Positions 31,645-47,946 of a stretch of DNA of 64,000 bases are shown piece by piece. The translations under genes and the position numbers were made by a program. Position 1 is the first letter of the stretch. Each line of letters begins with the position of its first letter. Source of the DNA: Gilvimarinus gilvus (GTDB lineage: Bacteria; Pseudomonadota; Gammaproteobacteria; Pseudomonadales; Cellvibrionaceae); NCBI RefSeq assembly GCF_030518155.1, contig NZ_JAULRU010000319.1:1-64000 (forward strand), read 5' to 3'. The notes beneath the pieces were generated by a model. The model was not told the DNA's origin. It saw only the letters and a program-made list of their open reading frames with translations, and did no database searches.

Positions 31645-31669
31645 AAAAAAGGCCCGAAGGGCCTTTTTT
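31645..31669. terminator. Bidirectional intrinsic terminator
   Basis: AAAAAAGGCCC-GAA-GGGCCTTTTTT, an 11-bp stem with a T-run on both strands, between the convergent nagR-like and nagX genes. It can serve both. Confidence 0.9.
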
Positions 31670-32745
31670 TAGATCGAAATAACAATTTTTTTCTTGTCCA
31701 TCCACCAAGCCACTAGCCAAAGAATGGCGACGTGAATCAAAGCAAAGGCAAGAGAGGCGTTGTATTCATTAAGGAAACTATTAAAGGCTTGAAAAATAAA
31801 CTGATACAACGATTGGCCGTCAACACTGAAAAGATAGTAACTTTTCACCCAGACAATACTAAGAATATATATAAACAGTGGATTTTTACCCAACTGAGCA
31901 AACCCAACTTCGAGTGACCTTGCCAAGCTTAATTTTTCAAGCTGGACCAAAGCCAACAAAACCAAAATAGCAGCGCCACTTGTCAACAAGACAAAGGAAC
32001 TGGTCCACAAGGATTTGTTGATTGGGAAAACCTGATGCCACGTTAAGGCGACGGCAATACTGGCTACTGCGACTATCACTAACTTAATCTGGGCCTTTGC
32101 TTTATTTTCGCTGGCAATCAGCATCCGCGCCGCCTCAAACCCGAAAATTACATTGACGATCGCAGGGAATGTACTCAGCACCCCTTCGGGGTCAAAAGCC
32201 AAGCCTTTGCCTTGCCACAGATGATCGGCACCCAGCACTGCCAAGTCAATCTGCCGTACTATATTGCCAGTCAGGCCATAAGGATCGTCAACTAAATTCA
32301 TCAAACCCCAGTAGCCCAATAGTAATGTAGCGCTGATCATCAAGCGCGCAACACCGGGCAGCCACACAATAAAAGCAGCCGCGCAATACGCCAAGGCTAT
32401 ACGCTGCAGCACTCCGAGAATTCTAAGCTCGTCGACACTGCCACTAAACGGATAAAAATTCAGCAACAACCCAATCAAAAACATGAGCGCGGTGCGTTTA
32501 ATTATTTTTACGGTGCGAACACTATAGGGAATGCTAGCTTGCGAACGGTTGGAAAAAAACATCGCCGAGCCAACAATAAACAAAAAGAAAGGAAATATAT
32601 AATCTGTGAAGGTAGCGCCATGCCAATCGGCATGCAGTAGTGGCGCGTAGACGTAAGACCAGGAACCGGGGGTATTGACTAACACCATCAATGCCAACGT
32701 TAGGCCACGCATGGCATCGAGAGCGACATACCGTTGCTTCGCCAT
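31669..32745 (-). CDS. nagX: NagX-like integral membrane protein (DUF5009/HGSNAT-type acyltransferase family)
   Basis: A 358-residue protein with about ten membrane segments. The family start ALDAMRGLTLALMVLVN, the motif FTDYIFPFFLFIVGSAM and the segment GKNPLFIYILSI are typical of NagX, a distant relative of the heparan glucosaminide acetyltransferase. In proteobacterial GlcNAc regulons NagX is thought to handle amino sugars at the inner membrane, by transport or (de)acetylation; its biochemistry is unsettled. ATG 32745 has GGGAG close upstream; the frame extends to 32790 without a better start. It follows the kinase gene on the same strand after 158 bases and probably shares its promoter. 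Confidence 0.85.
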   Translation of the reverse strand: MAKQRYVALDAMRGLTLALMVLVNTPGSWSYVYAPLLHADWHGATFTDYIFPFFLFIVGSAMFFSNRSQASIPYSVRTVKIIKRTALMFLIGLLLNFYPFSGSVDELRILGVLQRIALAYCAAAFIVWLPGVARLMISATLLLGYWGLMNLVDDPYGLTGNIVRQIDLAVLGADHLWQGKGLAFDPEGVLSTFPAIVNVIFGFEAARMLIASENKAKAQIKLVIVAVASIAVALTWHQVFPINKSLWTSSFVLLTSGAAILVLLALVQLEKLSLARSLEVGFAQLGKNPLFIYILSIVWVKSYYLFSVDGQSLYQFIFQAFNSFLNEYNASLAFALIHVAILWLVAWWMDKKKIVISI

Positions 32746-32903
32746 AAAAAATCTCCCAGTTTTGGTCGAACAGGAGCGCCACTGGCACATGGCCCGACAT
32801 GTTATTGTTTACTTTTTTATATCGCCGTCAACCTGCTCTTACCAACGAGCAAGTTTAGTTTATGCAGTAGCCAAGTTGACCTCTAGATTGAACGAAAGGA
32901 AAG

Positions 32904-33815
32904 TTACTCGGCGACTGCTTTTAACTCTGTCTCAAATCGGCTGCGAGCATAATGCACTGCACCAAACTCTGGCTGATTCAAAGGTTTTGACATTTTCTCA
33001 GCGATATCTTTATCCATCCAGTCCACAATGCGCTGTGAAACGCCGCCAAGCATTGCCATACGCGGAGGGTTGAGTTCCCAAAGCCTACGAGCAACATCGG
33101 TCAAATACTTCGCGCCCTCCTGAACAATCTTAAGCGCAATTTCATCGCCTTGCTCGGCAGCGGTAAATACCAGCGGTGCCATTTTGGCGTAATCGCTCGA
33201 TTTGGCTCCGCTTAGTCTCTCCACAATCATAATGCCGCGCGCCTGCAATTGCTCTGCCACCAACTCAGTCATCGCTGTCTTGGGGCCAAGTTCATCCGAG
33301 TCCAGCAATACTGCTTTAATACACTCCAGCCCCATCCAGGCGCCGCTGCCGATATCACCTAAGGGGAAACCGTGAGCTCCCAAGGTTAACGACTCGTTAC
33401 CCACGTGCGCAAAACCACACGAACCCGTTCCCGAGACAATAACAGCCCCGTCGTCTTGGCTGTGCGCAGCAACGCACGCAATATGAAGGTCGGTAGTCAG
33501 ATACTGGGCATAGTAGGGATGGTCCCACTGCTTGACGATTGTGTATAAACTGGGGACGTTTACGCCGGCAAGACCGAGGCCTGCGACGATGCGAGATTTA
33601 TCTTCGGGTTTTAAACCTGCCGAACGCAATGCATTATCACTGGCATTAACAATCGACTCTAAAGCGCGAGCTACACCGTGATAAGGGTTTGCAGGGCCGC
33701 CATTGCCTTCGCCAATGACTTGATTATTCTGATCAACCAGTATGGCGCGACACTTGGTACCGCCTCCATCAACGCCTAAATAAAGCAGGTTTTCGGTTGC
33801 TGGTTGAGAGCCCAT
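32904..33815 (-). CDS. nagK: BadF/BadG-type ATPase, probable N-acetylglucosamine kinase
   Basis: A 303-residue sugar kinase of the ASKHA fold. Phosphate-1 motif LGVDGGGTKCRAILVD is at the N-terminus, phosphate-2 is VSGTGSCGF, and an adenosine-type motif MAMLGGVSQRI lies near the end. Members of the BadF/BadG family next to nagX phosphorylate GlcNAc to GlcNAc-6-phosphate in the cytoplasm; human NAGK is a relative. ATG 33815 has GAGG about 7 bases upstream. Two GACAACGTTGTC operators and a TTGACA promoter lie about 300 bases upstream, with a terminator-like hairpin between (33924-33951). nagA and nagB are not in the window. Confidence 0.85.
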   Translation of the reverse strand: MGSQPATENLLYLGVDGGGTKCRAILVDQNNQVIGEGNGGPANPYHGVARALESIVNASDNALRSAGLKPEDKSRIVAGLGLAGVNVPSLYTIVKQWDHPYYAQYLTTDLHIACVAAHSQDDGAVIVSGTGSCGFAHVGNESLTLGAHGFPLGDIGSGAWMGLECIKAVLLDSDELGPKTAMTELVAEQLQARGIMIVERLSGAKSSDYAKMAPLVFTAAEQGDEIALKIVQEGAKYLTDVARRLWELNPPRMAMLGGVSQRIVDWMDKDIAEKMSKPLNQPEFGAVHYARSRFETELKAVAE

Positions 33816-33923
33816 GATATCCTCGTTATATATTCTTAGTATGGCCAATCGCCGGAACGGTTCGCAGTCTACAGCAGCGCCCCGTTAAAAAACTAGGTAG
33901 TGCTGGCACCCCGATTTAAAAAG

Positions 33924-34101: not shown

Positions 34102-34115
34102 GGACAACGTTGTCC
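34102..34115 (-). promoter_or_regulatory. NagR-type operator, promoter-proximal downstream copy at nagK
   Basis: A perfect 14-bp palindrome, GGACAACGTTGTCC. It lies just downstream of the predicted -10 box of the nagK promoter, 37 bp centre-to-centre from the second copy. A repressor here would block initiation or early elongation. Confidence 0.8.
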
Positions 34116-34124
34116 GATACCTCA

Positions 34125-34153
34125 ACTTTAGGCCTGAGAGACAACGTTGTCAA
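34125..34153 (-). promoter_or_regulatory. nagK-nagX promoter with overlapping NagR-type operator
   Basis: On the minus strand: -35 TTGACA (34148-34153), a 17-bp spacer, and -10 TAAAGT (34125-34130). The operator GACAACGTTGTC (34140-34151) overlaps the -35 box and half the spacer. The same geometry recurs at the TonB receptor and chemoreceptor promoters. Confidence 0.75.
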
Positions 34154-34537
34154 GCATTATTTTTGATCAAGCCAATATTGCTTCACCATATGTTTTTCAT
34201 ATAATTCAACAAGTTAAGAGATATTTGGGCTATTTAACAAACTTTATTACGCTCACAATTGGCGTTTTGGGTCTCAAACTGGTCCATATTCGCGGCCAGT
34301 CACGCAGCAGCGTGTGATGCGCGATTCGCCCCAATTACCGAAACCTGAGCTATATAGGGTAGGTAATCACGAAGGTGTTAAGCCGCGCTCAACAAAGCGA
34401 ACTTTGTTTAATATTATTATTCGCAAACAATGCGTGAGCTGAGCCTCGGATTGTATCGTCGTCATAGTCCTATCAGGTGGCAAATGGTAAACTCGCGGCC
34501 CTTTTTAATGACGCCCTGATACGGAAAAACAAACAAT

Positions 34538-35452
34538 ATGTGGTACAAGAACTTAAGAGTTTTCCGCCTGCAAGACGAATTCACCCTAACTCCGGAGGCT
34601 TTGGCGGAGCACCTGGAGTCCGCTGAGTTTGTTCCTTGTGGCAAGATGGATCTATCGCGCTATGGCTGGGTATCACCGCTCGGACCAGACGGCCAATCTC
34701 TGGTACACGCTGCCAACGGCCTGATTGCTCTGTGCGCAAAAAAGCAAGACAAAATTCTTCCCGCTGGTGTCATCAAAGAACAATTGGAAGATGCTATTCG
34801 CGACATCAAAACCAAAGAAAGCCGACCGGTAAGCCGCAAGGAGCGGGAGCACTTGAAGGAGGAGATTACTTTCTCTTTATTGCCGCAGGCTTTCGCCAAA
34901 TCAAGCGTCGATCATGCCTACATTGATACCGCGAACCGTTTACTGATTATCGACACCGGCAGCGCCAACCGGGCCGAAGAACTGATTAGCACCCTGCGCG
35001 AAGCGCTGGGATCTCTGCGCTGTATCCCTCTTTCACCTCACAACGCCGTCACCAATACACTTACCCATTGGCTTAAAGGTGGCAACCTACCCGCGGACTT
35101 TACTCTGGGCGATGAGTGCGAACTCATGTCCAGTCAGGATGAGCGTATCATTCGTGGCAAAAAACTCGACCTACTCGATGAGCAGCTCACTCAACATCTG
35201 GACACCGGCATGTTTGTGAGCAAACTTGCCATCCACTGGAAAGAGACCATTAGCTGCGTCGTTGACGATCAATTTTGCTTTAAGCGTGTGAAATTTGCCG
35301 ATTCCTTGCTGGAAAGAGCCGGCGACCGCTCACCTGACACTCTGGCCGAACAGTTTGATCATGAGTTTGCCATAATGGGGCTAGAGCTAACCGCATTCAT
35401 CAAGGCCGCCCTGCACGCATTTGGCGGCGAAGCCGAAGGAGAGTTCACATGA
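34538..35452 (+). CDS. rdgC: Recombination-associated protein RdgC
   Basis: A 304-residue DNA-binding protein recognised by its N-terminus MWYKNLRVFRL, the segment CGKMDLSRYGWVSPLG, the motif SRKEREHLKEEI, and LLPQAFAKSS. RdgC forms ring dimers on DNA and limits RecA loading. Length matches E. coli RdgC (303). It overlaps the following GST gene by 4 bases. It has no obvious connection to the sugar genes around it and breaks the GlcNAc cluster. Confidence 0.97.
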   Translation: MWYKNLRVFRLQDEFTLTPEALAEHLESAEFVPCGKMDLSRYGWVSPLGPDGQSLVHAANGLIALCAKKQDKILPAGVIKEQLEDAIRDIKTKESRPVSRKEREHLKEEITFSLLPQAFAKSSVDHAYIDTANRLLIIDTGSANRAEELISTLREALGSLRCIPLSPHNAVTNTLTHWLKGGNLPADFTLGDECELMSSQDERIIRGKKLDLLDEQLTQHLDTGMFVSKLAIHWKETISCVVDDQFCFKRVKFADSLLERAGDRSPDTLAEQFDHEFAIMGLELTAFIKAALHAFGGEAEGEFT

Positions 35453-36009
35453 AGCTGTATGGAAGCTACACCTCCCCCTATGTCAGACATTGCCGTATTG
35501 TTTTATCGCAGATTGGCGAGGACTTCGAGTTTATCGAGACAGATCGCGCGGGAAGCGCGATCAAATCACCCACCAAACGGGTACCGTTTTTAGAAGATGG
35601 TAACATTTGCCTCACCGACTCCAGCGCTATCGTCAAGTATTTGCGCGAAAAGGCTAACACCCCATTCTTGCCCGATATTGCCGATTACGACAGTTACTGT
35701 TTAACCAACACCGCTCTGGATGCCGCCGCCAATGTGTTCTTTCTGGAGCTGGACGGTGTTGGGCCAGCACAAAGTGATTATCTAAAGCGTCAAGCTGATC
35801 GTATTAAATCGAGCCTTGACGCTCTAGAGCTGAAAAACCTGGCTGAAAAAGCGCCGTACAATGACTTTGAACTCAAGCTAGGCTGTTTTTTGGATTGGGG
35901 GCTGTACCGCGAACGAATCTCCCTGAAAAGCTATCCAAATTTGCAGGTATTTTTACAGGGTATAAAGCAATATCCCTACTTTGCGGCGACAACGCCTCCA
36001 CCGCTTTAG
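35449..36009 (+). CDS. Glutathione S-transferase family protein
   Basis: A 186-residue protein with an N-terminal thioredoxin-like GST domain: MKLYGSYTSPYVRHCRI, the cis-proline segment KRVPFLEDGNICLTDSSAIVKYL, and a short helical C-domain. No signal peptide. The start overlaps the rdgC stop (ATGA), so the pair is translationally coupled. The substrate is unknown; the C-domain is shorter than in classical GSTs. Confidence 0.85.
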   Translation: MKLYGSYTSPYVRHCRIVLSQIGEDFEFIETDRAGSAIKSPTKRVPFLEDGNICLTDSSAIVKYLREKANTPFLPDIADYDSYCLTNTALDAAANVFFLELDGVGPAQSDYLKRQADRIKSSLDALELKNLAEKAPYNDFELKLGCFLDWGLYRERISLKSYPNLQVFLQGIKQYPYFAATTPPPL

Positions 36010-36137
36010 GCAATGACTGTCGTAAATCAAACAAGCGCCAATTTATCCCAAATTTAACGGCGTACGGCTGGGGCTAGTTTCTCGATTCGGGTATAGTCTT
36101 AAATAACTCGCGACACAGTACAAAGAGGGGCTACACC

Positions 36138-37649
36138 TTGCAAAACAGTAAAGTCAAAAACATCGTAATTGTTGGTGGCGGTACAGCAGGTTGGATGACG
36201 GCCGCCTCTTTAGCTCACAACCTAAAGATTGACGGCCTTAAAATCAGCCTGATCGAATCCGAGGAAATTGGCACGGTGGGCGTTGGTGAGGCCACCATTC
36301 CCAGCATTCGTAGCTTTAATGACTCGCTCGGTATCGATGAAGTTGAATTTCTGCAAAAAACGCAAGCTTCGTTTAAGTTAGGCATTGAGTTTCGCGACTG
36401 GCGTGAACTGGGCTCGAGTTTTTTCCACCCCTTTGCCGATTATGGGATTGACTTGGCAGGTATTCCCTTCCACCACCACTTGAATCGATTGCGCAGCACT
36501 GGACAAAACGTAGACATTGCGGATTTTTCATTCCCCACGCAACTGGCGAAGCAAAATCGCTTTGCCCAGCCCCACCCTAACCCACCGTCTCCTTTAGCCG
36601 ATTACGGCTATGCCTATCATTTCGATGCAGGTCGCTACGCGTTGTTTCTACGCAATTACGCGGAACAGCGCGGCGTCGTACGCATAGAAGGGAAAATTGA
36701 GCATATCGAACAAAACGATAACGGGGACGTTGCGACATTGACAACTGAGTCTGGTCAAAGCGTCAGTGGCGAACTTTTTATCGACTGTTCAGGTTTTCGG
36801 GGTTTGCTCATTGAGCAGACCTTAGCAACCGGCTACGACGATTGGCGCCATTGGTTGCCTTGTGATAGGGCTATTGCGGTGCAGAGTGAAATGGGTGGAG
36901 AGATTACTCCATACACCCGAACCACGGCAAAAGATTCAGGCTGGCAGTGGCGAATCCCCCTGCAACACCGAACGGGGAATGGTTATGTTTATGCCAGTGA
37001 TTTCTGCACGCCCGATCGCGCCGAAAAAACATTATTAGATGGCCTCGACGGCGCCCCGATTACCGAACCTCGCAAGTTTGAGTTCGTTACCGGAAAACGT
37101 AAGAATATATGGAACAAGAATGTCTTTGCCATTGGATTGTCTGGCGGCTTTCTGGAACCACTGGAGTCCACCAGCATCTCATTGATACAAACCGGTATCA
37201 GCAAACTGCTGAATTTTTTTCCATACCATGGCATTAATGAATGGGATCAGGCTGAGGTTAACCGGCAGCACAGCCACGAGTTTGAGCGTATTCGAGATTT
37301 TCTAATCCTGCACTACAAGGCCACGAAACGCGACGACTCGCCCTTCTGGCGCCACTGTCAAAGCATGGAAATCCCCGAAACCTTGCAGTTAAAAATGGCA
37401 CTGTTTGAAAATCGTGGTCATGTGATGATGCTGGAGCCCGAAGCCTTTGAACGCGACAGCTGGGTCACTATGTACTGCGGCTATGAAAAATACGCTGCTG
37501 ATTACGACCGCCGCGCCGACACGATATCCGATAACGAGCTGAACGCTCAGCTTGAGAAGATGAAACAATCCATTGCCAGCGCGGCTAGCCAACCCCTTAG
37601 CCACAGTGAGTTTATTCGTCGCCACTGCGCGGCACCGAAACCAGATTGA
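36138..37649 (+). CDS. Flavin-dependent tryptophan halogenase family protein, copy 1
   Basis: A 503-residue flavoprotein with the hallmarks of PrnA-type halogenases: FAD motif GGGTAG (residues 13-18), catalytic Lys80 (SFKLGIEF, equivalent to PrnA K79), W269-x-W271-x-I-P (GWQWRIPLQH), and the Glu motif FLEPLESTSI. These residues produce and steer hypohalous acid, so the fold is intact. The real substrate is unknown. Relatives occur beside TonB-dependent receptors in Xanthomonas, Caulobacter and Cellvibrio-type bacteria with no antibiotic cluster nearby, and some such enzymes halogenate indole in vitro. Initiation is at TTG 36138 with GAGGGG about 8 bases upstream. It is convergent to copy 2, 24 bases apart. 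No NagR-type site precedes it. Confidence 0.9.
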   Translation: MQNSKVKNIVIVGGGTAGWMTAASLAHNLKIDGLKISLIESEEIGTVGVGEATIPSIRSFNDSLGIDEVEFLQKTQASFKLGIEFRDWRELGSSFFHPFADYGIDLAGIPFHHHLNRLRSTGQNVDIADFSFPTQLAKQNRFAQPHPNPPSPLADYGYAYHFDAGRYALFLRNYAEQRGVVRIEGKIEHIEQNDNGDVATLTTESGQSVSGELFIDCSGFRGLLIEQTLATGYDDWRHWLPCDRAIAVQSEMGGEITPYTRTTAKDSGWQWRIPLQHRTGNGYVYASDFCTPDRAEKTLLDGLDGAPITEPRKFEFVTGKRKNIWNKNVFAIGLSGGFLEPLESTSISLIQTGISKLLNFFPYHGINEWDQAEVNRQHSHEFERIRDFLILHYKATKRDDSPFWRHCQSMEIPETLQLKMALFENRGHVMMLEPEAFERDSWVTMYCGYEKYAADYDRRADTISDNELNAQLEKMKQSIASAASQPLSHSEFIRRHCAAPKPD

Positions 37650-37673
37650 CTGCCCAACGCGTGCAAGCCAGCC

Positions 37674-39185
37674 TTATTTAGGTGCTGGCGCGGCACAGTG
37701 CTGGCGGATAAACTCTTCGTGGCTGGGCGCTGAATTTACCGCTGAGGCAACCGCGTTGCGCATGTCCTCTAGGGCTTTTTGCAAATACTCAGGGCTCATC
37801 CGATCGATACGCTGATCGTACTTTTCGGGTAGATAGTTAAAGCCATCGTAAATAGCTATCCAACTGGGCGGACCGAATATCTCTATTGGATAGCGAATAA
37901 GCTCTCCCCGCTCACGAAACGCGGCTACTTTTTCCGCCAGTTTGTCTGGCAAAACCATATCACGGCACTCGCGCCAGAACGCGCTATCATCACGTTGATT
38001 CAGCTTGTAATGCAAAATAATAAAATCGCGAACCCGCTCATATTCTTGAGCCGTCAAATCATTAAACTCATCCACATGTTGTTTTGTGAAAAACGGTCCC
38101 CGAAAGGCTCGGCGAATTTTCTCAATAGCGGTTTCAATAAGCGCAATGCTGGTGGACTCTAACGGCTCCAGAAAGCCGGACGATAAACCGACAGCAATAA
38201 CATTTTTGTTCCAGGCTTTCTTACGTCGCCCAGCAGTAAAACCAAACTTGCGAGGCTCGTGCAACCACTCTCCTGAGGTATGTTCACGTAACGTGGTAAT
38301 AGCCTCGTCTTCACTTACATACCGACTACAATACACATGGCCATTGCCCTGGCGGTGCTGCAACGGAATTTTCCACTGCCAACCGGCCTTATGTGCCTGG
38401 CTAACGGTGTAGGAAGGTGCCGGCCCCTCGCGAGTGGATTGCACCGCCACGGCGCGGTCGCACATTAGCCATTCGCTCCAATCCTCGTAGCCTGTCTCTA
38501 ACGCCTCTTGGATCAGCAAACCACGAAATCCGGAGCAGTCAATATACAAGTCCGCGGACACCACCTCACCATTATCCAAAAACAGTGATTCTACTCCAAC
38601 GTCAGCGTTTGCCTGAATTCGCTCAATTTTTGCGTCTACCCTCCGCACGCCATTTGCTTCAGCGTATTCGCGCATAAGCAACGCAAATTGGGATGCGTCA
38701 AAATGTAAGGCCCAGTCAAATACTGACAGTTCGGAGGGTGGGCGAGGTGAAGGTTCAATAAACTTACTCTGCTGCGCCAAATTCACCCCTAAAGAGTAGT
38801 CGGCAAGCTTGCTGGTATCGCCGGTACTGCGTAGCTTCATCCAGTAGTGGATAAAATCAATACCATTTGCCTTCTGACCGTAAAGCCCAAAGGGGTGTAT
38901 AAAATCAGACCCCGGCTGATACCAGTCTTTGAATTTTATACCCAACTTGCACGTCGCCTGGGTTCGGCGCATGACATCCATATCGTCCAATCCCAACTCG
39001 GCGTAAAAACGCCGCAATGTTGGAATTGTCGCCTCGCCGACACCAACGGTGCCAATTGCTGAGGATTCAATCAAGGTAATCGAAATGGCAGTCTTGCGGA
39101 AGTGTTTGCTCAGCATCGCAGCCGTCATCCATCCTGCCGTACCGCCACCGACTATAACAATCTTATGAACTTCTTTTGTATTCAC
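37674..39185 (-). CDS. Flavin-dependent tryptophan halogenase family protein, copy 2
   Basis: A 503-residue paralogue of the convergent gene. It keeps FAD motif GGGTAG (13-18), Lys80 (TCKLGIKF), the WxWxIP motif (GWQWKIPLQHR) and FLEPLESTSI. The two proteins align from end to end by eye, including the C-terminus FIRQHCAAP/FIRRHCAAP, so they are products of duplication within this family. It lies 134 bases downstream of the TonB-dependent receptor on the same strand, behind a terminator-like hairpin, and is probably expressed by read-through from the receptor promoter. This places it under the same NagR-type control. Confidence 0.9.
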   Translation of the reverse strand: MNTKEVHKIVIVGGGTAGWMTAAMLSKHFRKTAISITLIESSAIGTVGVGEATIPTLRRFYAELGLDDMDVMRRTQATCKLGIKFKDWYQPGSDFIHPFGLYGQKANGIDFIHYWMKLRSTGDTSKLADYSLGVNLAQQSKFIEPSPRPPSELSVFDWALHFDASQFALLMREYAEANGVRRVDAKIERIQANADVGVESLFLDNGEVVSADLYIDCSGFRGLLIQEALETGYEDWSEWLMCDRAVAVQSTREGPAPSYTVSQAHKAGWQWKIPLQHRQGNGHVYCSRYVSEDEAITTLREHTSGEWLHEPRKFGFTAGRRKKAWNKNVIAVGLSSGFLEPLESTSIALIETAIEKIRRAFRGPFFTKQHVDEFNDLTAQEYERVRDFIILHYKLNQRDDSAFWRECRDMVLPDKLAEKVAAFRERGELIRYPIEIFGPPSWIAIYDGFNYLPEKYDQRIDRMSPEYLQKALEDMRNAVASAVNSAPSHEEFIRQHCAAPAPK

Positions 39186-39223
39186 AGGCCAACCATTAGG
39201 AGAATCTTTTCGACAGCATATAT

Positions 39224-39264
39224 AAAAAAACCGCCGGTAAAAACCCTAAGGCTCCTAACGGCGG
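39224..39264 (-). terminator. Terminator between TonB-dependent receptor and halogenase copy 2
   Basis: On the minus strand CCGCCG (39259-39264) pairs with CGGCGG (39231-39236) across a 22-base loop and is followed by seven T. The long loop suggests partial termination, giving more receptor than halogenase transcript. Confidence 0.65.
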
Positions 39265-39319
39265 CTAATTTGGTAAGCGAATATAACCTAAGCTATATCC
39301 GCCTATCCGGCTTCAGAAC

Positions 39320-42300
39320 TTAGAAGTTTACGCGAGCACCCAGTGCCCAGCGAGCTTCGTAGATATTCTGGAATGCTTTTTGATCTGCGTATTCCAGATA
39401 AGTTTGCTGGAACTCTTCGGTGATGTTCGAACCGTTCAAGTATACAGCAACGTTATCAGTCACATCCCAAGTTACGTTCAGATCCAATTGACCGTAGTCA
39501 TCCTGATAAAGGTTTTGACCACCAACTGCATCAGTACCTACAGTAATCAGACGAGGAGAACGGAAGTTGTAGGCCAAACGAGCTGACAAGAAGTCGTTCT
39601 CAAACCAACCTACGATGTTGTAAGTATCTTCTGAGTTGTTAACGAATGGAATCTCAGACCCGTTAATGCCAGTACCTTCTTGAGAACTGTCAGAGAATGT
39701 GTAGTTCACGTCAAAACCGAAGTTAGACAAGAAACCGTCGGTAATGTCCGCAAACGCAACTTTCGCTGCCAATTCAACACCCTGAACTTCACCACCAGTG
39801 CCCTGTACAGGTGCACTAAACGGCCAAGGTCCACGACGAATACCGTCAGCGTCTGGCTCGTCGATCATCACGGTACCGCTGGATACGAAGCTATCGATTT
39901 CAATATTGAAGATCGCAGCAGTCAACGCAGAAGCGCTACCCAAGTACCATTCCGCTGTCACTTCCATATTGGTAGCGCGAGTTGGGTCCAGCTCCGGGTT
40001 ACCACTCAAAGAGCCGCCATTCACACGCATGCAATTACAGTCTTGGTTAAACACACGACCGGTAGACTTAGCGCCGCCCCAGGTCAGCAGGTTCAAAGGC
40101 TGCATGGTTTCACCGTAGGCAAAACGCATCTTGAAGTCGTCAGTAAAGTCGTAGGCCAAGTTCAACGCCGGCAAAACATCGGTATAGCTACGGGTCGTGT
40201 ACACATCACCGTCATCGTAGTTTACGCCCGAGTGAGGCACGCTTTCGCCCGTTACGTTCTGAACAACGGTCAACTCGGTTTCTACAACTTTAACGCCCAA
40301 GCTACCAGTCAGATTGCCAACTTCGAAGTTACCGTTCAAGAAGTAGCTGAATTCATCCAAACCAACGCTGTAGCTTTGACCTGGCTGAACAAACTTAGAC
40401 TGCTCGCCAAATACGCGCTCTTGATACGCCAAAGTATCATCGAAGGCTTTAGGGTCGGCAACCCAAACACCTGGAATACCAGATACACCGCCGATGCTGT
40501 CCAGCCAAATTACGTCGTTGTTTTGGTCAAGACGCAGCGGAGGAATCAGGGTGTAGGCTTCGTAATGATCTTCATAACCCGTAATATTTCCATCTTCGTC
40601 GGTGATAGGGTTTTGAACCCATCCGCCGTCACCATCGCTCAGGCGCTCTGACTGACGCAAGTTTGGATCACACTCTGACGTGCCGGAGAATTGGTCAACA
40701 GCCTTCCATTGAGCAGAGCAGCCAGTGTCGGGGAAGGTCGCAAAGTAAGAGAAAACATCGTGATCTACTTTGCGCTCACTCTGACGAACACCAAAATCAA
40801 TACTGGTCAAGAATGCCGCATCGTCAAATGCGTAATTCCAGCGGGTGCTGAAGGTGTTCAACTCGCCTTTATCGTCAGTATTGTTCTCGGAAGAGATTGC
40901 ACCAACATGATAAGAGTCGATGTTAGACATGTAGTCAGCAACCGACATTTGTCCTTGACCGCCATCTACCATTTGGTCGAAGCCGGAGAACACTGGGTGC
41001 TCACCTGATGCGTCATAACCGATAGTCCAGTCGGTACCAGTCATACCACCGGGAGAGTACTGGACAAAACAGCCACCAAATTCACCAGTCGCAGTACCGG
41101 GGATCACACCGTATTGGTCACAGTACTCAGCCTGCAGCATACCGCCTGGGCCAGTAACAAGGGTACCGCTGTCGATACTCATCATATCGCCTTCGATGTA
41201 GCCGTGGCGCATAGAGGCGGTCGCATCAGCACGAGTCACACGTACCTGACCGGTCAACGGGCCGCCGTTATCGAAGTTCAATTCAACGCTGGCGTTATTA
41301 GACTCTTCAGTGTTGCGGTTAACCTGAGTGAACGACTGGAAGCGGTATGGACGCGCGTCATAGGCGTTAACACCTACCCAGTTCTGATCATTCCATGTCC
41401 AGGAATCGCCAGTAAAGCCGCCTTCAGCAGGTGTGGCGTAGGTGGTAAAGGTTTGCCAGCGGTTATTCTGAGAGAAACCCATACGACGGTTGAAACGGTC
41501 TTGCTTGCTGTAGAAGTAATCAGCAACCAACTCAACGCTGTCAGTCAGCTGAGCCTGGAACGATACGTTAATACCATCGCGGTTACGCTCTTCTTCTTTG
41601 TTGAAAGCGGCAAAACCCTGAGGTACGACGTGATAGTTATCACTGTACAACGGCTCGCCGCCCCAACCCATAATGTTCGGGTTAGCTGCACCAATACCGC
41701 CATTTTCAGAGGTATCAAAGTAACCATTGTAGTTGGTGGCGAGATTCTTCTCAGTGGTTACGGCACTGATCAATACACCCCAGTTTTCGTTGTTGTAACC
41801 AATCAAACCGCTGATGGTAGGATCGTATTCATCGCTGATGCTGCCGTGATCAACTTCGGCTTGGCCAGAGAAGGTGAAACCTTCATCCAGATCGAAAGGA
41901 CGACGGGTTTTCAGATCGATAGTACCGGCAATACCCAAAGAGGTAAGGTCAGCGCGGGCAGACTTGTATACGTCCGCACCAGAGAACAGCTGAGAAGGCA
42001 AATCGCCAAAGTCAGCGCCTGAAGAGTCGATGGTAGTCGCACTCAGGAAAGTCTCACCATTTAAGGTGGTGTCTACGTTACCCAAGCCGCGGATCTGAAC
42101 CGGACCACCTTCACCTGCAGTACGCTCAACCTGGATACCAGGCACACGCTGCAGCGAGTCGGAAATGGTTACGTCGGGAAGCTTACCGATGTCTTCGGCA
42201 GAGATGGCGTCAACGGTAGATGCCGCGTCGCGCTTAGTGTTAACGGCGTTTTGTTGCGAAGCATAAACACCGGTTACCACAACCTCTTCGAGCATAGGCT

Positions 42301-42394
42301 CGTCTTGAGCTTGTACATATGCGGATGCTAACAGGCAGGACGAAATACTGGTAGCCAGTACCTTCCTCCGGAAGTTGCCTTTGGTAGTTTCCAT
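39320..42394 (-). CDS. TonB-dependent receptor of the Xanthomonas/Caulobacter type, probable chito-oligosaccharide/GlcNAc uptake
   Basis: A 1024-residue outer-membrane protein. A signal peptide ends near VQAQ (about 30), a TonB box follows (MLEEVVVTG), then a plug domain (VDAISAEDIGKLPDVTISDSLQRVPGIQVERT, with IRGLGNVDTTLNGE) and a long barrel ending in Phe (ALGARVNF), the usual outer-membrane insertion signal. Size and plug wording fit the large TonB-Xanth-Caul subfamily, which imports oligosaccharides. GAGGAG precedes ATG 42394. The promoter carries a GACAACGTTGTC operator over its -35 box, so the gene should be induced together with nagK and the chemoreceptor. The exact ligand is inferred from this regulon, not from the protein. 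Confidence 0.93.
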   Translation of the reverse strand: METTKGNFRRKVLATSISSCLLASAYVQAQDEPMLEEVVVTGVYASQQNAVNTKRDAASTVDAISAEDIGKLPDVTISDSLQRVPGIQVERTAGEGGPVQIRGLGNVDTTLNGETFLSATTIDSSGADFGDLPSQLFSGADVYKSARADLTSLGIAGTIDLKTRRPFDLDEGFTFSGQAEVDHGSISDEYDPTISGLIGYNNENWGVLISAVTTEKNLATNYNGYFDTSENGGIGAANPNIMGWGGEPLYSDNYHVVPQGFAAFNKEEERNRDGINVSFQAQLTDSVELVADYFYSKQDRFNRRMGFSQNNRWQTFTTYATPAEGGFTGDSWTWNDQNWVGVNAYDARPYRFQSFTQVNRNTEESNNASVELNFDNGGPLTGQVRVTRADATASMRHGYIEGDMMSIDSGTLVTGPGGMLQAEYCDQYGVIPGTATGEFGGCFVQYSPGGMTGTDWTIGYDASGEHPVFSGFDQMVDGGQGQMSVADYMSNIDSYHVGAISSENNTDDKGELNTFSTRWNYAFDDAAFLTSIDFGVRQSERKVDHDVFSYFATFPDTGCSAQWKAVDQFSGTSECDPNLRQSERLSDGDGGWVQNPITDEDGNITGYEDHYEAYTLIPPLRLDQNNDVIWLDSIGGVSGIPGVWVADPKAFDDTLAYQERVFGEQSKFVQPGQSYSVGLDEFSYFLNGNFEVGNLTGSLGVKVVETELTVVQNVTGESVPHSGVNYDDGDVYTTRSYTDVLPALNLAYDFTDDFKMRFAYGETMQPLNLLTWGGAKSTGRVFNQDCNCMRVNGGSLSGNPELDPTRATNMEVTAEWYLGSASALTAAIFNIEIDSFVSSGTVMIDEPDADGIRRGPWPFSAPVQGTGGEVQGVELAAKVAFADITDGFLSNFGFDVNYTFSDSSQEGTGINGSEIPFVNNSEDTYNIVGWFENDFLSARLAYNFRSPRLITVGTDAVGGQNLYQDDYGQLDLNVTWDVTDNVAVYLNGSNITEEFQQTYLEYADQKAFQNIYEARWALGARVNF

Positions 42395-42603
42395 AACTGT
42401 CTCCTCACTATCATTTTAATGTTATTTTGAAACATTTGACGCCCCACTAGGTGATTGCTAACACCTTTCGGACACGCCGGATGAACTCAGTCAACTTTTT
42501 ATCGGTGTATAACACCTGCACATAATGTTTATGCGCAAGGCGCTACAAAACCGTTACAAGCCTAAAACCAACTAAATACAAGACTCGTATATTACGGAAT
42601 GTA

Positions 42604-42633
42604 GTTTTACACCCGCCCCGACAACGTTGTCAA
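42604..42633 (-). promoter_or_regulatory. TonB receptor promoter with overlapping NagR-type operator
   Basis: On the minus strand: -35 TTGACA (42628-42633), an 18-bp spacer, and -10 TAAAAC (42604-42609). The operator GACAACGTTGTC (42620-42631) overlaps the -35. The predicted leader is about 200 nt long and ends at a good ribosome site. Confidence 0.7.
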
Positions 42634-42783
42634 GAAAGTTTTTTGTAGGTAAGCGCGAACCCACCAATATAGTCACATCGACCAAAACAAATTATTTCCT
42701 TTAGTAGCAACAGGTTACAGAATTATTGCAAACAAAAAAAAGACCTAATCAAAGACCCAAAAATGTTCGAAAAAACGACACCT

Positions 42784-42795
42784 GACAACGTTGTT
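42784..42795. promoter_or_regulatory. Distal NagR-type operator upstream of TonB receptor gene
   Basis: GACAACGTTGTT, one mismatch from the palindrome, 164 bp upstream of the promoter-overlapping copy. No gene with support starts nearby in either direction. It may be an auxiliary site that allows looping by a tetrameric LacI-type protein. Confidence 0.6.
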
Positions 42796-43279
42796 CGGCA
42801 GTTATTAGAATCGCCGCCACGCAATATTTTCATTACACCCCATCAAACATGCACAGCGGTGTGGCGCAAGCAGGCCAAACACAGAGGGAGAGATACAATA
42901 ACCGCGCCTACCAACAGTGAATCCAGGCGCTTTATTGGTGCACTCCCCTCTCGCACACGTGCAAGCTTTGGAAACCGAAGGAAAGCTTTAACACTCGAGT
43001 CATTGCCCTATTAAGACATTCTTACGAGTGGCTGGCAGCACTTAGCCGGCAGAATGAACGCGACACAATGGCACTCTTCCACTCAGTGCAAGACACAGCT
43101 GTATGCGCACGGCATAATCTGACAATACAAGTGTGCTCGCACCGCCAAAGTCTTTGCTCATTAAAGTAAGGTATAGACATTTGCTGCAGGCTTGTTTAAA
43201 GAGTAATAGCACGGCCCGCCGGAAAAACAAGCGAAGCCATCGACCGGCTCTAACTTTTACTGCGCTCGGCTTATTAAAA
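42796..43279. other. Non-coding stretch upstream of the TonB receptor
   Basis: About 480 bases between the distal operator and the hexosaminidase terminator. Short frames at 42763-43014 and 43042-43230 match nothing I know and have no ribosome sites. I see no hairpin of note, RNA gene or repeat here. Confidence 0.45.
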
Positions 43280-43310
43280 AAGCCCCGGCAGGAACAACCC
43301 GCCGGGGCTT
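43280..43310 (-). terminator. Intrinsic terminator of the hexosaminidase gene
   Basis: AAGCCCCGGC paired with GCCGGGGCTT (10 bp) around an 11-base loop, followed on the minus strand by six T. It lies 66 bases after the stop codon. Confidence 0.88.
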
Positions 43311-43376
43311 AAATAGAACCACTGTGTGGCAACCAATCCATCGGTTCTCACACCAGTAGGCGAGCAAACCTCCGGT

Positions 43377-45929
43377 TCACGGCGTAACAGCGAGACTGTC
43401 AATCCGACTTATTTGCTCGCCTAACCGGGCCCGCAACATAATCTTCCCACCGCCGACTTCTGCCGGCTGCTGGTAAGACTGCCAATCCGTACCATTGTGA
43501 CTGTATTCCAGCTCAACGCCAGGATAGAGGCTATTCATGTGGAGCTTACCCGCTTTGATGGAGGCACCCGGTGGCGGCAAATAGAACTCGCCGCCCTGCG
43601 CTTGCAGACGAGGCAACTCACGATTTACAAGGGCCCCAACAAAGCCTTGGTAATCTCTTTGACGAGCAGACACAGACGCAGAGTCCTCCCAGGCGGCTTT
43701 GTGCCAGGCGCGCTCAGCCAATGCCATTAACCGGGGATAAATCATTTGCTCGAGCTGCTCAGGAGTACGAATGGTTTCGGTCCACACCTGCCCTTGAATA
43801 CCCAGTATATTTTCCGGCTTCTCCAACGGTGGCAGTGGGCGCCCCACCAAAGCCTCCAGGTTGTCTATAGGATCGCCATTGCGGGTATAGTCGGCGTTGG
43901 CATAGACATCATCGGGCAGATAAGAGAACACTTTCGCCAAATCCGTATACCGCGCCGCCCAATAGTAGCCGCGCTCCTTAGGGTGAACCTCGTGCGGATG
44001 ATCAAAGTACAAGTGTGTGCCGTGTGACAACACCACTTGATAACCGGCGTTGGCCAGACGATGCGCCCGGTCAGCAACACCCCACTCCCAAATGTTATCC
44101 CAGACATTCGCAATCACATTTTCATTGACGAACTGAGAGCGATTGAAAGTATTGGTCCAATCATACATTAGGCCGTCTTCCCAACCGGCCAAATCCAACC
44201 CACGCTTATTGGCAATCGCTGAAACACGACTTACAAAGTAAGGCTTCAGATCGGACGGGCCGGAGATTCCCAGCGTATCGGCAAATAACTGGTTACATAT
44301 AGGTGACGCCGTCCAGGAGCCTGCTCCAACCTCATCGCCTCCCATATGGAAAGTATCCAGCTTGATGCCCGCTTTGCGGTACATTTGCTGCAACTCATAT
44401 ATAACCTTATCGACAAAGTTGTAGGTAGATTCGCGGCAAACGTTAACCGAGTTATCCGTGTAATTTTGTACCGTTATATACTGCGACTGATCTTTCGGGT
44501 CTGACAATAGGTAGCGCTCTGCCTGCTCAGGCTGCCCCTCCTCCATGAGACGCTCGTAGCGCGCGTTCATCGACACGATCGCAGCCCTGGCGTGCCCCGG
44601 CATATCGATCTCGGGAATCACCTCGATATGGCGCTCGGTGGCAAATTTGAGTATTTCAATAAAGTCGTCGACGCTATAATAACCATTACCGCTGCCAGAA
44701 CTGTGAGGACCGGTTCCAAGTTGGGTCAGCAAACATTCACGCTCGCTCGGGTCAAAGCAACGATTGGCCCCCACATCGGTCAACTCAGGCAATCCTGGTA
44801 TTTGCAAACGCCAACCTTCATCTTCAGTAAGATGAAGGTGCAGCTTATTGAGCTTGTAACGCGCCATTTGCTCAATCAAGCGCAGGGTGACTTCCTTGCC
44901 GTGGAAATTGCGCCCCATATCGTAGTGCATACCACGCCAGCCCGCGCGCGGGCTGTCCTGCATGCTAACGCGCGGAACGACAACATTGCCATCCTCGGTT
45001 TTAGCCAAGCCCAGTAAGCTCTGGATTCCATAGAAAGCCCCGGCAACATCGCTACCAACCACGGCAATCTGTTTTTTCTCCACCTGCAGGGCGTAGCCTT
45101 CGGCCCCTTGGGGTGCCTTTGCCTCTACCGTGTCGGAATTGCCAGACAGGACATAAATCACCGGACCGCTTGCTGCCACGTGATCGGGCTCAGCAGCTAG
45201 CTCGAGGCCGTAGTCTTGCTTTAAGCGTTTTTGCAAATAGTTGGCTTCAAAGCGCGCGCCACCAGAGTAGCGAATTTGCCACTCTTTGGTCAGCAGCGCC
45301 TCTGCGCGGCGATATTTGATTTCAGAGGGGGCCGGAATAAGACGCGGCTCCCGGACCGCTTCGACCAGACCCTCGGCCAGCACAAAGCGCTGCTGTGGCG
45401 TTACGATCATATATTGATCATCCGCACTGCGGCGCAGCTGCTTCTCCTGGACAATGGGAGCAACAAACTCTGTCAATTGTTCGGTGTCTGTATTGGCAAA
45501 CACTTCAGGCTCTAAGCCCTCATACACCACAAATGATCTGGGCATAAAGTCGGAGTAAGCCACCATGTGTGCATTGGGGCTGAATTCGACCGCCAGTGCC
45601 TCGCCAGATTTCAGGCCACTGAATTCTTCAGTCGGCACCAACCGGTGTAAATCACCCTGAATATGCTCAATGCGTAAGTCAGCTTCGGGCGCGCTTTGGA
45701 CCTTACGAACGGCGTGAAAATATACAGCCCAATTCTCTGCGGGCAATGCCTGGCGCGACTGATTGTCGAGCTTCAACAGCATTTTTCGGCCTGCTTTATC
45801 GGTATTCGACACGACCTCAAAGGTGAGCTGAGTATCGTCTGCAAACTCGGCCATATCGCTCTGTGACCACGCGGCTCCAAGCGATGCTACCGGCCAACAA
45901 GCGGCCATTATTAGAATCAGTTTACGCAT
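43377..45929 (-). CDS. Beta-N-acetylhexosaminidase (GH20), chitobiase type
   Basis: An 850-residue exported enzyme that releases GlcNAc from the non-reducing end of chito-oligosaccharides. A signal peptide (LILIMAACWPVASLGA) is followed by a chitobiase N-terminal carbohydrate-binding-like domain (about 25-185), a GH20b domain (about 200-325), the catalytic barrel and a C-terminal beta-domain. The catalytic pair D532-E533 is in FHMGGDEVGAGSW; substrate-assisted catalysis through the acetamido group is the family mechanism. The opening segment WRGMHYDMGRNFHGKE is typical. ATG 45929 has GAGG about 10 bases upstream; the frame runs on to 45989 across an operator and is not used. A NagR-type site lies 56-67 bases before the start. 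Confidence 0.95.
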   Translation of the reverse strand: MRKLILIMAACWPVASLGAAWSQSDMAEFADDTQLTFEVVSNTDKAGRKMLLKLDNQSRQALPAENWAVYFHAVRKVQSAPEADLRIEHIQGDLHRLVPTEEFSGLKSGEALAVEFSPNAHMVAYSDFMPRSFVVYEGLEPEVFANTDTEQLTEFVAPIVQEKQLRRSADDQYMIVTPQQRFVLAEGLVEAVREPRLIPAPSEIKYRRAEALLTKEWQIRYSGGARFEANYLQKRLKQDYGLELAAEPDHVAASGPVIYVLSGNSDTVEAKAPQGAEGYALQVEKKQIAVVGSDVAGAFYGIQSLLGLAKTEDGNVVVPRVSMQDSPRAGWRGMHYDMGRNFHGKEVTLRLIEQMARYKLNKLHLHLTEDEGWRLQIPGLPELTDVGANRCFDPSERECLLTQLGTGPHSSGSGNGYYSVDDFIEILKFATERHIEVIPEIDMPGHARAAIVSMNARYERLMEEGQPEQAERYLLSDPKDQSQYITVQNYTDNSVNVCRESTYNFVDKVIYELQQMYRKAGIKLDTFHMGGDEVGAGSWTASPICNQLFADTLGISGPSDLKPYFVSRVSAIANKRGLDLAGWEDGLMYDWTNTFNRSQFVNENVIANVWDNIWEWGVADRAHRLANAGYQVVLSHGTHLYFDHPHEVHPKERGYYWAARYTDLAKVFSYLPDDVYANADYTRNGDPIDNLEALVGRPLPPLEKPENILGIQGQVWTETIRTPEQLEQMIYPRLMALAERAWHKAAWEDSASVSARQRDYQGFVGALVNRELPRLQAQGGEFYLPPPGASIKAGKLHMNSLYPGVELEYSHNGTDWQSYQQPAEVGGGKIMLRARLGEQISRIDSLAVTP

Positions 45930-45984
45930 TGTTATTTTCCTCAGTACTGTTTTATGCGGCGGCCGAAAAGTGCCAAGCCAGCCT

Positions 45985-45996
45985 GACAACGTTGTC
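45985..45996 (-). promoter_or_regulatory. NagR-type operator upstream of the hexosaminidase gene
   Basis: A perfect GACAACGTTGTC palindrome. Unlike the other three promoters it does not sit on a TTGACA box. A possible promoter, TTGGCA (45971-45976) with TAAAAC (45949-45954) 16 bp apart, would place the operator just upstream of -35, or another start may be used. Confidence 0.75.
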
Positions 45997-46250
45997 CACC
46001 TTACACCAATTACCGGCGGGCGCCCATTACTTTACACACTTTGACTTATGTTAATTTATCTCGTGCCGATAGCGTCTAGTATTTAGGGAACACTCAATGG
46101 TTCTGTCGAGATACAGTCTCAGAGCCATCACTCGCGCACCGCCTTGACGCAATCTGCAAGGAAGTTGCACCAATAATAGATAACGCATATACCTAAAAAT
46201 GGAAAATTTAATTAACTTCAACTTATTGTGGAATAATGCACCAAAACTGA

Positions 46251-46279
46251 TTGACAACGTTGACATGCAGACATAATTT
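46251..46279 (+). promoter_or_regulatory. Chemoreceptor promoter with overlapping NagR-type operator
   Basis: -35 TTGACA (46251-46256), an exact 17-bp spacer, and -10 TAATTT (46274-46279). The operator GACAACGTTGAC (46253-46264, one position off the palindrome) overlaps the -35 box. The start codon is 45 bases downstream with GAGG six bases before it. Confidence 0.72.
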
Positions 46280-46323: not shown

Positions 46324-47946
46324 ATGTCTCTTAGATTGAAAGTGTGGGTTTTATCCGGGCTGATTCTTATAGGTCTTTTGGTTTTGACCAGTGTCGGCCT
46401 GTTCACCCTGCGCCAGGCGACCAGTGATGATAACGAAGCTCGGGTCAAACAGTTACTGACCAGTACTTACGCCACTGTCGTAGAAATGGAAGCACTCGCC
46501 AAAGAAGGCGTTTTGAGCGATGAGCAAGCTCAGGAAATTGCGGCGCGGCTGCTGCGTGAAAACGTCTATCACAATTCGGAGTATGTTTACGTCGCTGATG
46601 ATAACTTAGATTTTATTGCGGCCCCACTAGATCCGCAGTTACACGGAACCAGCTTTCACGAGTTTAAAGACGGAAACAACAAAAGCGTGGGCGAAATTAT
46701 GCTGCAGGCGGTGAACTCCGCAGGTGACAACCTGGCGAGCTATCACTGGACTCAACGCCAGGCGGATGGATCCATTGAAGAAAAGTTGTCGATCGCGCAG
46801 CGCTCTCCACGTTGGGGTTGGTTCGTCGGCACCGGAATTGGCTTTAACGAAGTAAACGCGCGCTTTTGGGACAGCGCAGGCAGTCAGTTAGTCATATGCT
46901 TGATTGTCAGCTTGTTTATTGTCGTTCCTGTTCACTTCGCCGTAAGCAAGATAAAAATTGGCTTGGGGGGTGAACTGCGTGACGTACTTGGCTTGGTGAG
47001 ACGCGTTGCCGACGGTGACCTTACCGAAAGCGCCCACGTGCTAGACTCGGCGGATGACAGCATTTACGGCTCCATGTTGCGAATGCGCCACTCAATGCGC
47101 GAGATTATGCTCGCTTTGCAATCTGCGGCGCAATCGCTCGATCAAGTCGGTGATGACATTGTCGAACGGGCGCAAACCAGCACTGCCATGGCGGAGGAAC
47201 AAAGCAGCACCGCCATTAAAATTGCCGCCTCAGCCGAAGAATTTAATCAACAAACACGCCACGCCATGGGTCAAGCGGAGGACGCTAAAAACCAGACTCA
47301 TTCGGCCTCTAGTACTTCAGAACATGGTCAACGCCTGATATCCAGTGCCGTCAGTAAATTTACGGAAATTGACCAAAGCGTCAGTACGACTCAGGACAGC
47401 ATGGACACTCTAGCCAACCGGGTGGACAACATTTCTGCCGTGGTATCGGTGATCAGTGCGGTAGCTGAGCAAACCAATTTACTAGCGCTGAACGCAGCCA
47501 TTGAGGCGGCACGGGCGGGCGAACAAGGCCGCGGCTTCGCCGTGGTAGCGGACGAGGTTCGGCAACTGGCCTCGCGCACCACGCAAGCCACGCAAGAAAT
47601 CAGCGAGAGCATCAGTGCCGTGCAGCAAAGCAGCCAGGAAAGTAAAAGCCACATGGACGCTATGGTGAACGAGTTGCGCGAAGGTATAAAACAAACCCGT
47701 GAGGGGGGCGCTATTGTCGAGTCTATTCGCAGCGAAACTCAAGTCGTGGAGGACATTGTCTCGCGCATTGGCCAAGCTATGGCGGAACATGTAGAGGCCA
47801 GCGGCCTGATCTTAGAATATGTCAGCCACATGGAGGCGTCTTCGCAAAACACCAAATCTGCGGCCCAGGGCACACTGGAGACTTCCAGAAAAATTCGCGA
47901 CGCTGCCCACCAGATGAGCGAGCAGCTGGAGCAGTTTACACTTTAA
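46324..47946 (+). CDS. Methyl-accepting chemotaxis protein with Cache sensor, in the GlcNAc regulon
   Basis: A 540-residue inner-membrane chemoreceptor. It has membrane helices at about 8-29 and 185-207, and a periplasmic single-Cache type 2 domain between them ([20 protein letters not shown], ending [14 protein letters not shown]). HAMP follows, then a signalling hairpin with the conserved tip [19 protein letters not shown] and [16 protein letters not shown]. It relays ligand occupancy to CheA/CheW. The promoter carries a NagR-type operator, so receptor levels should rise with GlcNAc or chitin products. The ligand itself cannot be read from sequence; sCache_2 domains often bind small carboxylates. 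The gene end overlaps convergent trpC by 11 bases. Confidence 0.93.

Follow-up and report, generated by a model that had tools for sequence, protein, structure and literature searches.

GlcNAc genes and operator copies in the window

The DNA analysed here, a 64-kb stretch from Gilvimarinus gilvus that we call the window, contains a gene for a LacI-family repressor together with genes for a GlcNAc kinase, a TonB-dependent receptor, a beta-hexosaminidase and a chemoreceptor.

30585..31595, plus strand: nagR candidate, a LacI-family repressor of 336 aa with the helix-turn-helix (HTH) motif VSFKTVSRVV (Pfam LacI and Peripla_BP_3 over cut-off)
31669..32790, minus strand: nagX-like membrane protein (Pfam HGSNAT_cat)
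32904..33815, minus strand: nagK, GlcNAc kinase, ATG at 33815 (scanned as 32904-33818; NCBIfam NagK_SO3507, 454.6 bits against a cut-off of 370)
39320..42394, minus strand: TonB-dependent receptor (Pfam Plug and TonB_dep_Rec_b-barrel; TIGR01782, 501 bits against a cut-off of 310)
43377..45929, minus strand: GH20 beta-hexosaminidase, ATG at 45929 (scanned as 43377-45932; Pfam Glyco_hydro_20, CHB_HEX)
46324..47946, plus strand: chemoreceptor with an sCache_2 sensor domain (Pfam MCPsignal, sCache_2)

The nagX-like protein scores 171.9 bits against NagX_SO_3504, under the cut-off of 480. Directly 5' of the nagR candidate is a GntP-type gluconate permease gene (29112-30425) that has no operator copy near it at up to one mismatch, and two convergent tryptophan-halogenase-like genes (36138-37649 and 37674-39185) adjoin the TonB receptor gene.

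The putative operator is the palindrome GACAACGTTGTC. At up to one mismatch it occurs exactly six times in the 64 kb, as four exact and two one-mismatch copies, and 100 shuffles of the window gave a mean of 0.18 copies and a maximum of 1. When two mismatches are allowed there are 11 matches against 2.35 expected, and the five additional ones (20323, 44412, 44979, 56640 and 60335) are near background. The six copies and the predicted promoter elements associated with them are as follows.

34103..34114, minus strand: second exact operator at nagK, around the predicted transcription start (pattern scan)
34125..34130, minus strand: -10 TAAAGT of the nagK promoter, spacer 17
34140..34151, minus strand: exact operator of the nagK promoter, fused with the -35 (pattern scan and base reading)
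34148..34153, minus strand: -35 TTGACA of the nagK promoter, its last four bases in common with the operator
42604..42609, minus strand: -10 TAAAAC of the TonB receptor promoter, spacer 18
42620..42631, minus strand: exact operator of the TonB receptor promoter (pattern scan and base reading)
42628..42633, minus strand: -35 TTGACA of the TonB receptor promoter, fused with the operator
42784..42795, minus strand: one-mismatch operator-like copy GACAACGTTGTT, about 150 bp farther upstream of the TonB receptor (pattern scan)
45985..45996, minus strand: exact operator upstream of GH20, no fusion to TTGACA (pattern scan and base reading)
46251..46256, plus strand: -35 TTGACA of the chemoreceptor promoter, fused with the operator
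46253..46264, plus strand: one-mismatch operator GACAACGTTGAC of the chemoreceptor promoter (pattern scan)
46274..46279, plus strand: -10 TAATTT of the chemoreceptor promoter, spacer 17

A preliminary description of this DNA had claimed six sites, two of them with one mismatch, as well as three promoters in which TTGACA merges into the palindrome. All six sites were found again, and a base-by-base reading of the promoters of nagK (34153-34125, minus strand), the TonB receptor (42633-42604, minus strand) and the chemoreceptor (46251-46279, plus strand) bore out the merged arrangement, with the -10 following at 17, 18 and 17 bp, respectively.

The two operators at nagK are 37 bp apart (34140 and 34103). 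The same 37-bp pair is present at nagK in six other genomes of the genus (G001, G002, G003, G004, G005 and G007) and a 29-bp pair in G006, while the fused nagK promoter, with TTGACA 17 bp from the -10, is repeated in G003, G004 and G007. The MCP-like gene of G001, G004, G007 and G008 has an exact operator with TT in front.

Copies across the genome

The genome scanned, that of Gilvimarinus gilvus (G000; 4.78 Mb in 852 contigs), contains eight exact copies of the operator, of which four lie outside the window, against one for a reversed-pattern control. A further 11 places match with one mismatch: two in the window and nine outside it, eight of the latter within open reading frames (ORFs). Since the exact copies exceed the control and the total at up to one mismatch does not (19 against 23), one-mismatch copies are informative only in context, and we rejected them as regulon members on a genome-wide basis. 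One of them is likely to belong to the regulon: the copy at C152:69978, which precedes a YdjC-type deacetylase gene. The four exact copies outside the window are the following.

L016: between acs and a lipoprotein gene
L017 (G000:C302): within nagA (4896-6047), towards its 5' end, the gene being part of a nagA-nagB-nagX cluster
L018: upstream of a second TonB receptor gene, with a fused TTGACA and the best -10 at 19
L019: in front of a nagP-like permease, with a fused TTGACA and a spacer of 17

The nagA and nagB genes of this genome pass the TIGR00221 and TIGR00502 cut-offs, and the nagP-like permease scores 519.5 bits against NagP_SO3503, under the cut-off of 625. The palindrome is thus common to nagK in the window and, elsewhere in the genome, to nagA-nagB and the nagP-like gene, and in the window it also accompanies accessory genes, namely those for the TonB receptor, the chemoreceptor and the GH20 enzyme. 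The preliminary description had predicted sites at nagA, nagB and a nagP-type gene, and the exact copies at the nagP-like gene and at nagA-nagB agree with this. Its remark that there were none elsewhere applies to the window and fails for the genome. An operator at the -35 is seen at the three window promoters, the nagP-like gene and the second receptor, and not at nagA, where the copy is intragenic. No -35 fusion was seen at GH20 and acs of G. gilvus or at the second copy of the nagK pair.

A probable operator within nagA

The copy in nagA lies in frame, 105 nt into the gene, and is exact in all eight genomes of the genus that were examined (G000-G007). NagA of the other seven is 75-86% identical to the G. 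gilvus protein, and in an alignment of the eight, the amino acid is the same throughout in 229 of 388 columns and the codon in 39. Upstream of nagA, a predicted promoter of the form TTGCAA-17/18-GATAAT is found in seven of the eight genomes, G002 having no match to the pattern used. Over the 400 bp upstream of nagA the best match to the operator has four or five mismatches in each of the eight genomes, and the intragenic operator is located at +134 to +199 from the predicted starts. A promoter inside the gene, fused to the site as at nagK, was considered and rejected, as TT precedes the site on neither strand in any of the eight genomes.

The stretch concerned, the 18-mer GAAAATGACAACGTTGTC, encodes the peptide ENDNVV, and it could be argued that the operator is a by-product of this peptide, which is itself invariant in all eight genomes. 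Of 144 family genomes, 12 contain the 18-mer, namely the eight of the genus and four of another genus (L388-L391), where it codes for ENDNVV in an Ig-like stretch that has no match to the reference proteins, NagA included. A coding reason for such a stretch is therefore possible, which tempers the claim for nagA. Against it, all six codons are invariant together with the peptide, whereas only 22 of the 212 other invariant residues of NagA that are neither Met nor Trp keep one codon (the six site codons left out). Only three four-codon windows of nagA are without any DNA change, and all three lie over the site. ENDNVV is flanked by residues that vary, and none of the eight other NagA proteins compared contains it. 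Finally, the nagA unit of several other genera has the operator upstream instead: directly upstream of nagA in G020, G028 and G032, and in G031 and G035 upstream of a gene that adjoins nagA and the regulator gene, a SIS-domain gene where scanned. We therefore consider a purely coding origin of the site rather unlikely. In the genus of the Ig-like 18-mer, one member (G010) has the regulator.

An exact operator with invariant codons, placed downstream of an operator-free promoter, suggests repression by roadblock, and we take this intragenic site as the most likely point at which nagAB would be repressed. The gene order of related loci offers a possible history. Four Cellvibrio-type loci (L305, L307, L310 and L313) have nagK-nagP-nagX-nagA-nagB on one strand, with one exact operator about 250-270 bp before nagK. 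The simplest account would be that a single nag operon was split and that regulation was regained from within nagA. Going one step further, we lean towards the view that in Gilvimarinus the sole NagR operator of nagA-nagB-nagX lies within nagA and acts purely as a roadblock to elongation, that regulatory DNA rather than enzyme function dictates the ENDNVV of a NagA loop that otherwise varies, and that this arose after nagAB left the single nag operon of the Cellvibrio-type loci. Among the best-matching titles listed in a literature search, none concerned a Gilvimarinus NagR regulon or an intragenic site in nagA; judged by these titles alone, a conserved intragenic nagA operator seems to be unreported.

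Overlap of the operator with the -35 hexamer in relatives

The sharing of bases between -35 and operator was assessed from the 170 exact sites in the 19 genomes with a close ortholog of the 30585 protein (see below), of which 103 face one candidate gene on one side; the remaining 67, which have two candidate genes or none near, or lie inside a long ORF, were removed. The counts include related genomes, and kinship is handled only in the per-genus tally of co-occurrence. Genes in the relatives were called with a simple ORF script and named by their best BLAST match to 22 proteins of G. gilvus.

TT directly precedes the site on the gene-facing strand at 58 of the 103 one-sided sites and on the other strand at seven. 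A TAnnnT-type -10 follows at a spacing of 17 in 23 of the 58 fused sites, compared with two of 58 on the opposite strand; there are none at 16, three at 18 and nine TAnnnT-type hexamers at 24. At most TonB receptors of the genus the hexamer at 18 bp is TAAAAC or TAAAAA.

Because GACA belongs to the operator anyway, a -35-like hexamer needs just two further bases, and one might suppose that the TT is a part of the operator, that its likeness to TTGACA is incidental and that the true promoters lie elsewhere. We find this quite improbable. A symmetric operator would not give so one-sided a TT, the 17-bp peak of TAnnnT-type hexamers is confined to the gene side, and the receptor hexamers at 18 bp recur as described. 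In addition, 45 of the 103 one-sided exact operators have no TT in front, which means that the operator itself does not include TT. As read from these predicted promoters, the fusion of -35 and operator is a recurrent, strand-asymmetric feature.

The genes behind the 58 fused sites match TonB receptors (26), nagK (13), nagP (6) and acs (1), and 12 are unmatched. Twenty proteins next to sites were scanned for protein families, two of which had no family. Where scanned, the unmatched genes at fused sites include GH19 and GH18 chitinases, a ChitinaseA_N protein and an AA10 LPMO, and further scanned genes beside sites encode CBM5/12 proteins, SIS-domain proteins, PGI, and an OmpA-type and a ShlB-type gene product. 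Sites at chitinase genes, which had been anticipated from the window, thus appear in the relatives, at GH18 and GH19 chitinases and also at AA10 LPMOs.

The candidate regulator and its paralog

The preliminary description had named the protein encoded at 30585 as the local candidate for the regulator and had likened the site to the box used by a LacI-type NagR in Xanthomonas. The best-scoring solved structures for the 30585 protein are CcpA and PurR. We followed its distribution over 58 genomes (own, genus, family and order), taking at least 60% identity to the 30585 protein as a close ortholog, which 19 of them have, the own genome included. All 19 carry at least two exact sites, compared with one of the 39 genomes without an ortholog; when tallied per genus, the figures are 12 of 12 and one of 39. 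The ortholog-bearing genomes have 2-16 exact sites each, 170 in total against 23 for the reversed control, while the other 39 have nine in total (two in G034 and one each in seven genomes) against 31. Five of these nine were fetched (those of G016, G017 and G024 and both of G034), and all five overlap an ORF. Across the 58 genomes the exact operator therefore goes with the 30585 protein and not with its nearest paralog, which upholds the earlier nomination; by co-occurrence, the 30585 protein is the predicted regulator of these sites.

The genome of G. gilvus has 10 LacI-type genes, nine of them over the Pfam cut-off, and the distribution across genomes was followed for two, the 30585 protein and its nearest paralog, which is 45% identical to it (G000:C762:116838). 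Paralog identity was checked directly in G000, G001, G003 and G004 (80-100%) and in G013 (53%, with 42% to the 30585 protein). A rival reading is that another LacI-family protein, most likely this paralog, occupies the sites, either by itself or in competition with the 30585 protein. This would fit the similar recognition helix of the paralog (SMKTVSRVV against SFKTVSRVV), an operator of its own that differs only at the two positions next to the central CG, and the eight LacI-type genes that lie outside the distribution evidence. We find it very improbable: this other operator, GACAGCGCTGTC, is located some 20-110 bp ahead of the paralog-type gene in nine genomes (G000-G007 and G013); G018 and G029, in which the 30585 type is present and the listed matches include no 40-48% paralog, carry 12 and five sites; and G013, with the paralog type alone, has no exact site. 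With the 30585 protein as the predicted regulator, the pair of paralogs with AACGTT and AGCGCT cores would provide a compact case of operator divergence.

The paralog gene adjoins an MFS permease gene, and its palindrome TTGACAGCGCTGTCA starts with TTGACA (L094:4871-4886, G000:C762). Another palindrome, around TTAACGTTAA, is found between a further LacI-type gene and a following gene with a TonB-receptor-like start (L096:6111-6126, G000:C594) and is possibly a third LacI-type operator. In other genera a site is present in front of the regulator gene itself (G010, G028 and G035; L333, L350, L354 and L361), and the eight genomes of the genus Gilvimarinus have no exact site in front of nagR. The regulator match in G005 begins only at residue 53 of 336 (L051), and the best match of L315 (G. 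polysaccharolyticus YN3) showed no HTH motif; both defects may reflect a frameshift or a sequencing error.

Proposed mechanism and comparison with known systems

From the sites, their fusion to the -35, the co-occurrence with the regulator, the separate site of the paralog and the codon conservation in nagA, we infer a scheme for binding, effector, start sites, occlusion and roadblock, and we regard it as very probable overall that the palindrome is a NagR-type operator of the 30585-31595 repressor, with fused, adjacent and intragenic sites. In the absence of GlcNAc (or GlcNAc-6P), a dimer of the 30585 protein would occupy GACAACGTTGTC. The operator's first half doubles as the predicted -35 TTGACA at nagK, at the TonB receptors, at nagP and at the chemoreceptor, so that binding there would exclude RNA polymerase. 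The second operator copy at nagK would cover the start region, and at GH20 and acs the site would lie beside the promoter. At nagA-nagB-nagX, the operator in nagA, past an operator-free promoter, would most likely block elongation, as is reported for PurR at purB of E. coli.

DNA looping between paired sites was considered and rejected, since operators paired within 100 bp of each other are 29-40 bp apart (68 bp in one case) and keep no single helical phase. We prefer a model in which paired sites are bound by independent dimers; the 30585 protein presumably lacks the extra C-terminal length of tetrameric LacI.

He and Zalkin reportedly described, in 1992, a PurR operator inside E. coli purB that acts as a roadblock. 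In a survey of LacI-family sites, less than 1% are inside coding regions, with lacZ and purB named (PMC4052901). The nagA site resembles purB, as far as that account goes, in being a LacI-family operator within coding sequence, and differs in regulator and pathway, with the roadblock at nagA being our proposal from its position.

A NagR regulon of this kind is already known from Shewanella, to which Gilvimarinus appears to add a member. The targets of the LacI-family NagR of Shewanella oneidensis (SO3516) are nagK, nagP and genes for an outer-membrane protein, a chitin-binding protein and a chemoreceptor with hexosaminidase, and its control of them was validated by gel shift, by release with 20 mM GlcNAc and by 5- to 50-fold derepression; the release by GlcNAc was seen in vitro (PMC3223726). 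For the LacI-type NagI of S. maltophilia, GlcNAc-6P is the inferred inducer (PMC13055268). Within the scope of the Shewanella account, the two systems share a LacI-family repressor with nagK, nagP, nagA/nagB function, an outer-membrane receptor, a chemoreceptor and a hexosaminidase as targets, predicted ones in Gilvimarinus, release of the repressor by an amino sugar being a feature described for Shewanella; the likeness is one of regulon make-up. Unlike in Shewanella, nagK-nagX in Gilvimarinus stands apart from nagA-nagB-nagX, the nagA operator is intragenic, and there are further sites at acs and, in relatives, at GH18, GH19 and AA10 genes. In Xanthomonas, as outlined in PMC5343134, NagR controls a GlcNAc kinase and TonB receptors, as would be the case here, and NagQ controls nagAB and nagP; in contrast to that outline, exact NagR-type sites are found here also at nagA and the nagP-like gene.

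The predicted regulon extends an experimentally validated type to a lineage of marine polysaccharide degraders, and because promoter and operator are defined together, genes that are likely regulated can be read from sequence, among them those for chitinases, LPMOs, receptors and chemotaxis. The nagA site would offer a clean natural example of a transcription-factor site that seems to take precedence over codon choice, and probably over some of the enzyme sequence as well, and repression by roadblock at this site could be tested by synonymous changes alone.

Operator cores and regulator clades

To compare operator cores we used the best 80 loci (L300-L379) and counted only the four forms of GACA[AG]CG[CT]TGTC. 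Residue 16 of the regulator is F in 32 of these loci and I in 47, with one (L315) not classified. The AACGTT core makes up 57 of 59 sites of the F-type loci (L340 included) compared with nine of 111 of the I-type, where the other 102 sites have mixed or AGCGCT cores. The F-type group consists of Cellvibrionaceae, Halieaceae and Woeseiaceae, and the I-type group of Alteromonadaceae, Colwelliaceae, Rheinheimera and kin, and Marinobacter.

Residue 16 was considered as the cause of the strict AACGTT core and rejected. The F/I split runs almost wholly along one branch of the tree, and the only F outside that clade, L340 (Alteromonas, on a long branch of unsure place), has GACAGCGTTGTC. As this F-type locus does not follow, residue 16 alone is insufficient as an explanation, and we take the link between residue and core in these sequences as an association at clade level that does not establish a one-residue switch. 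The best 80 loci listed contain no Shewanella or Xanthomonas record; the same loci include regulators of Rheinheimera, Alishewanella, Thalassotalea and others with about 55-60% identity to the 30585 protein, often near nag-type genes.
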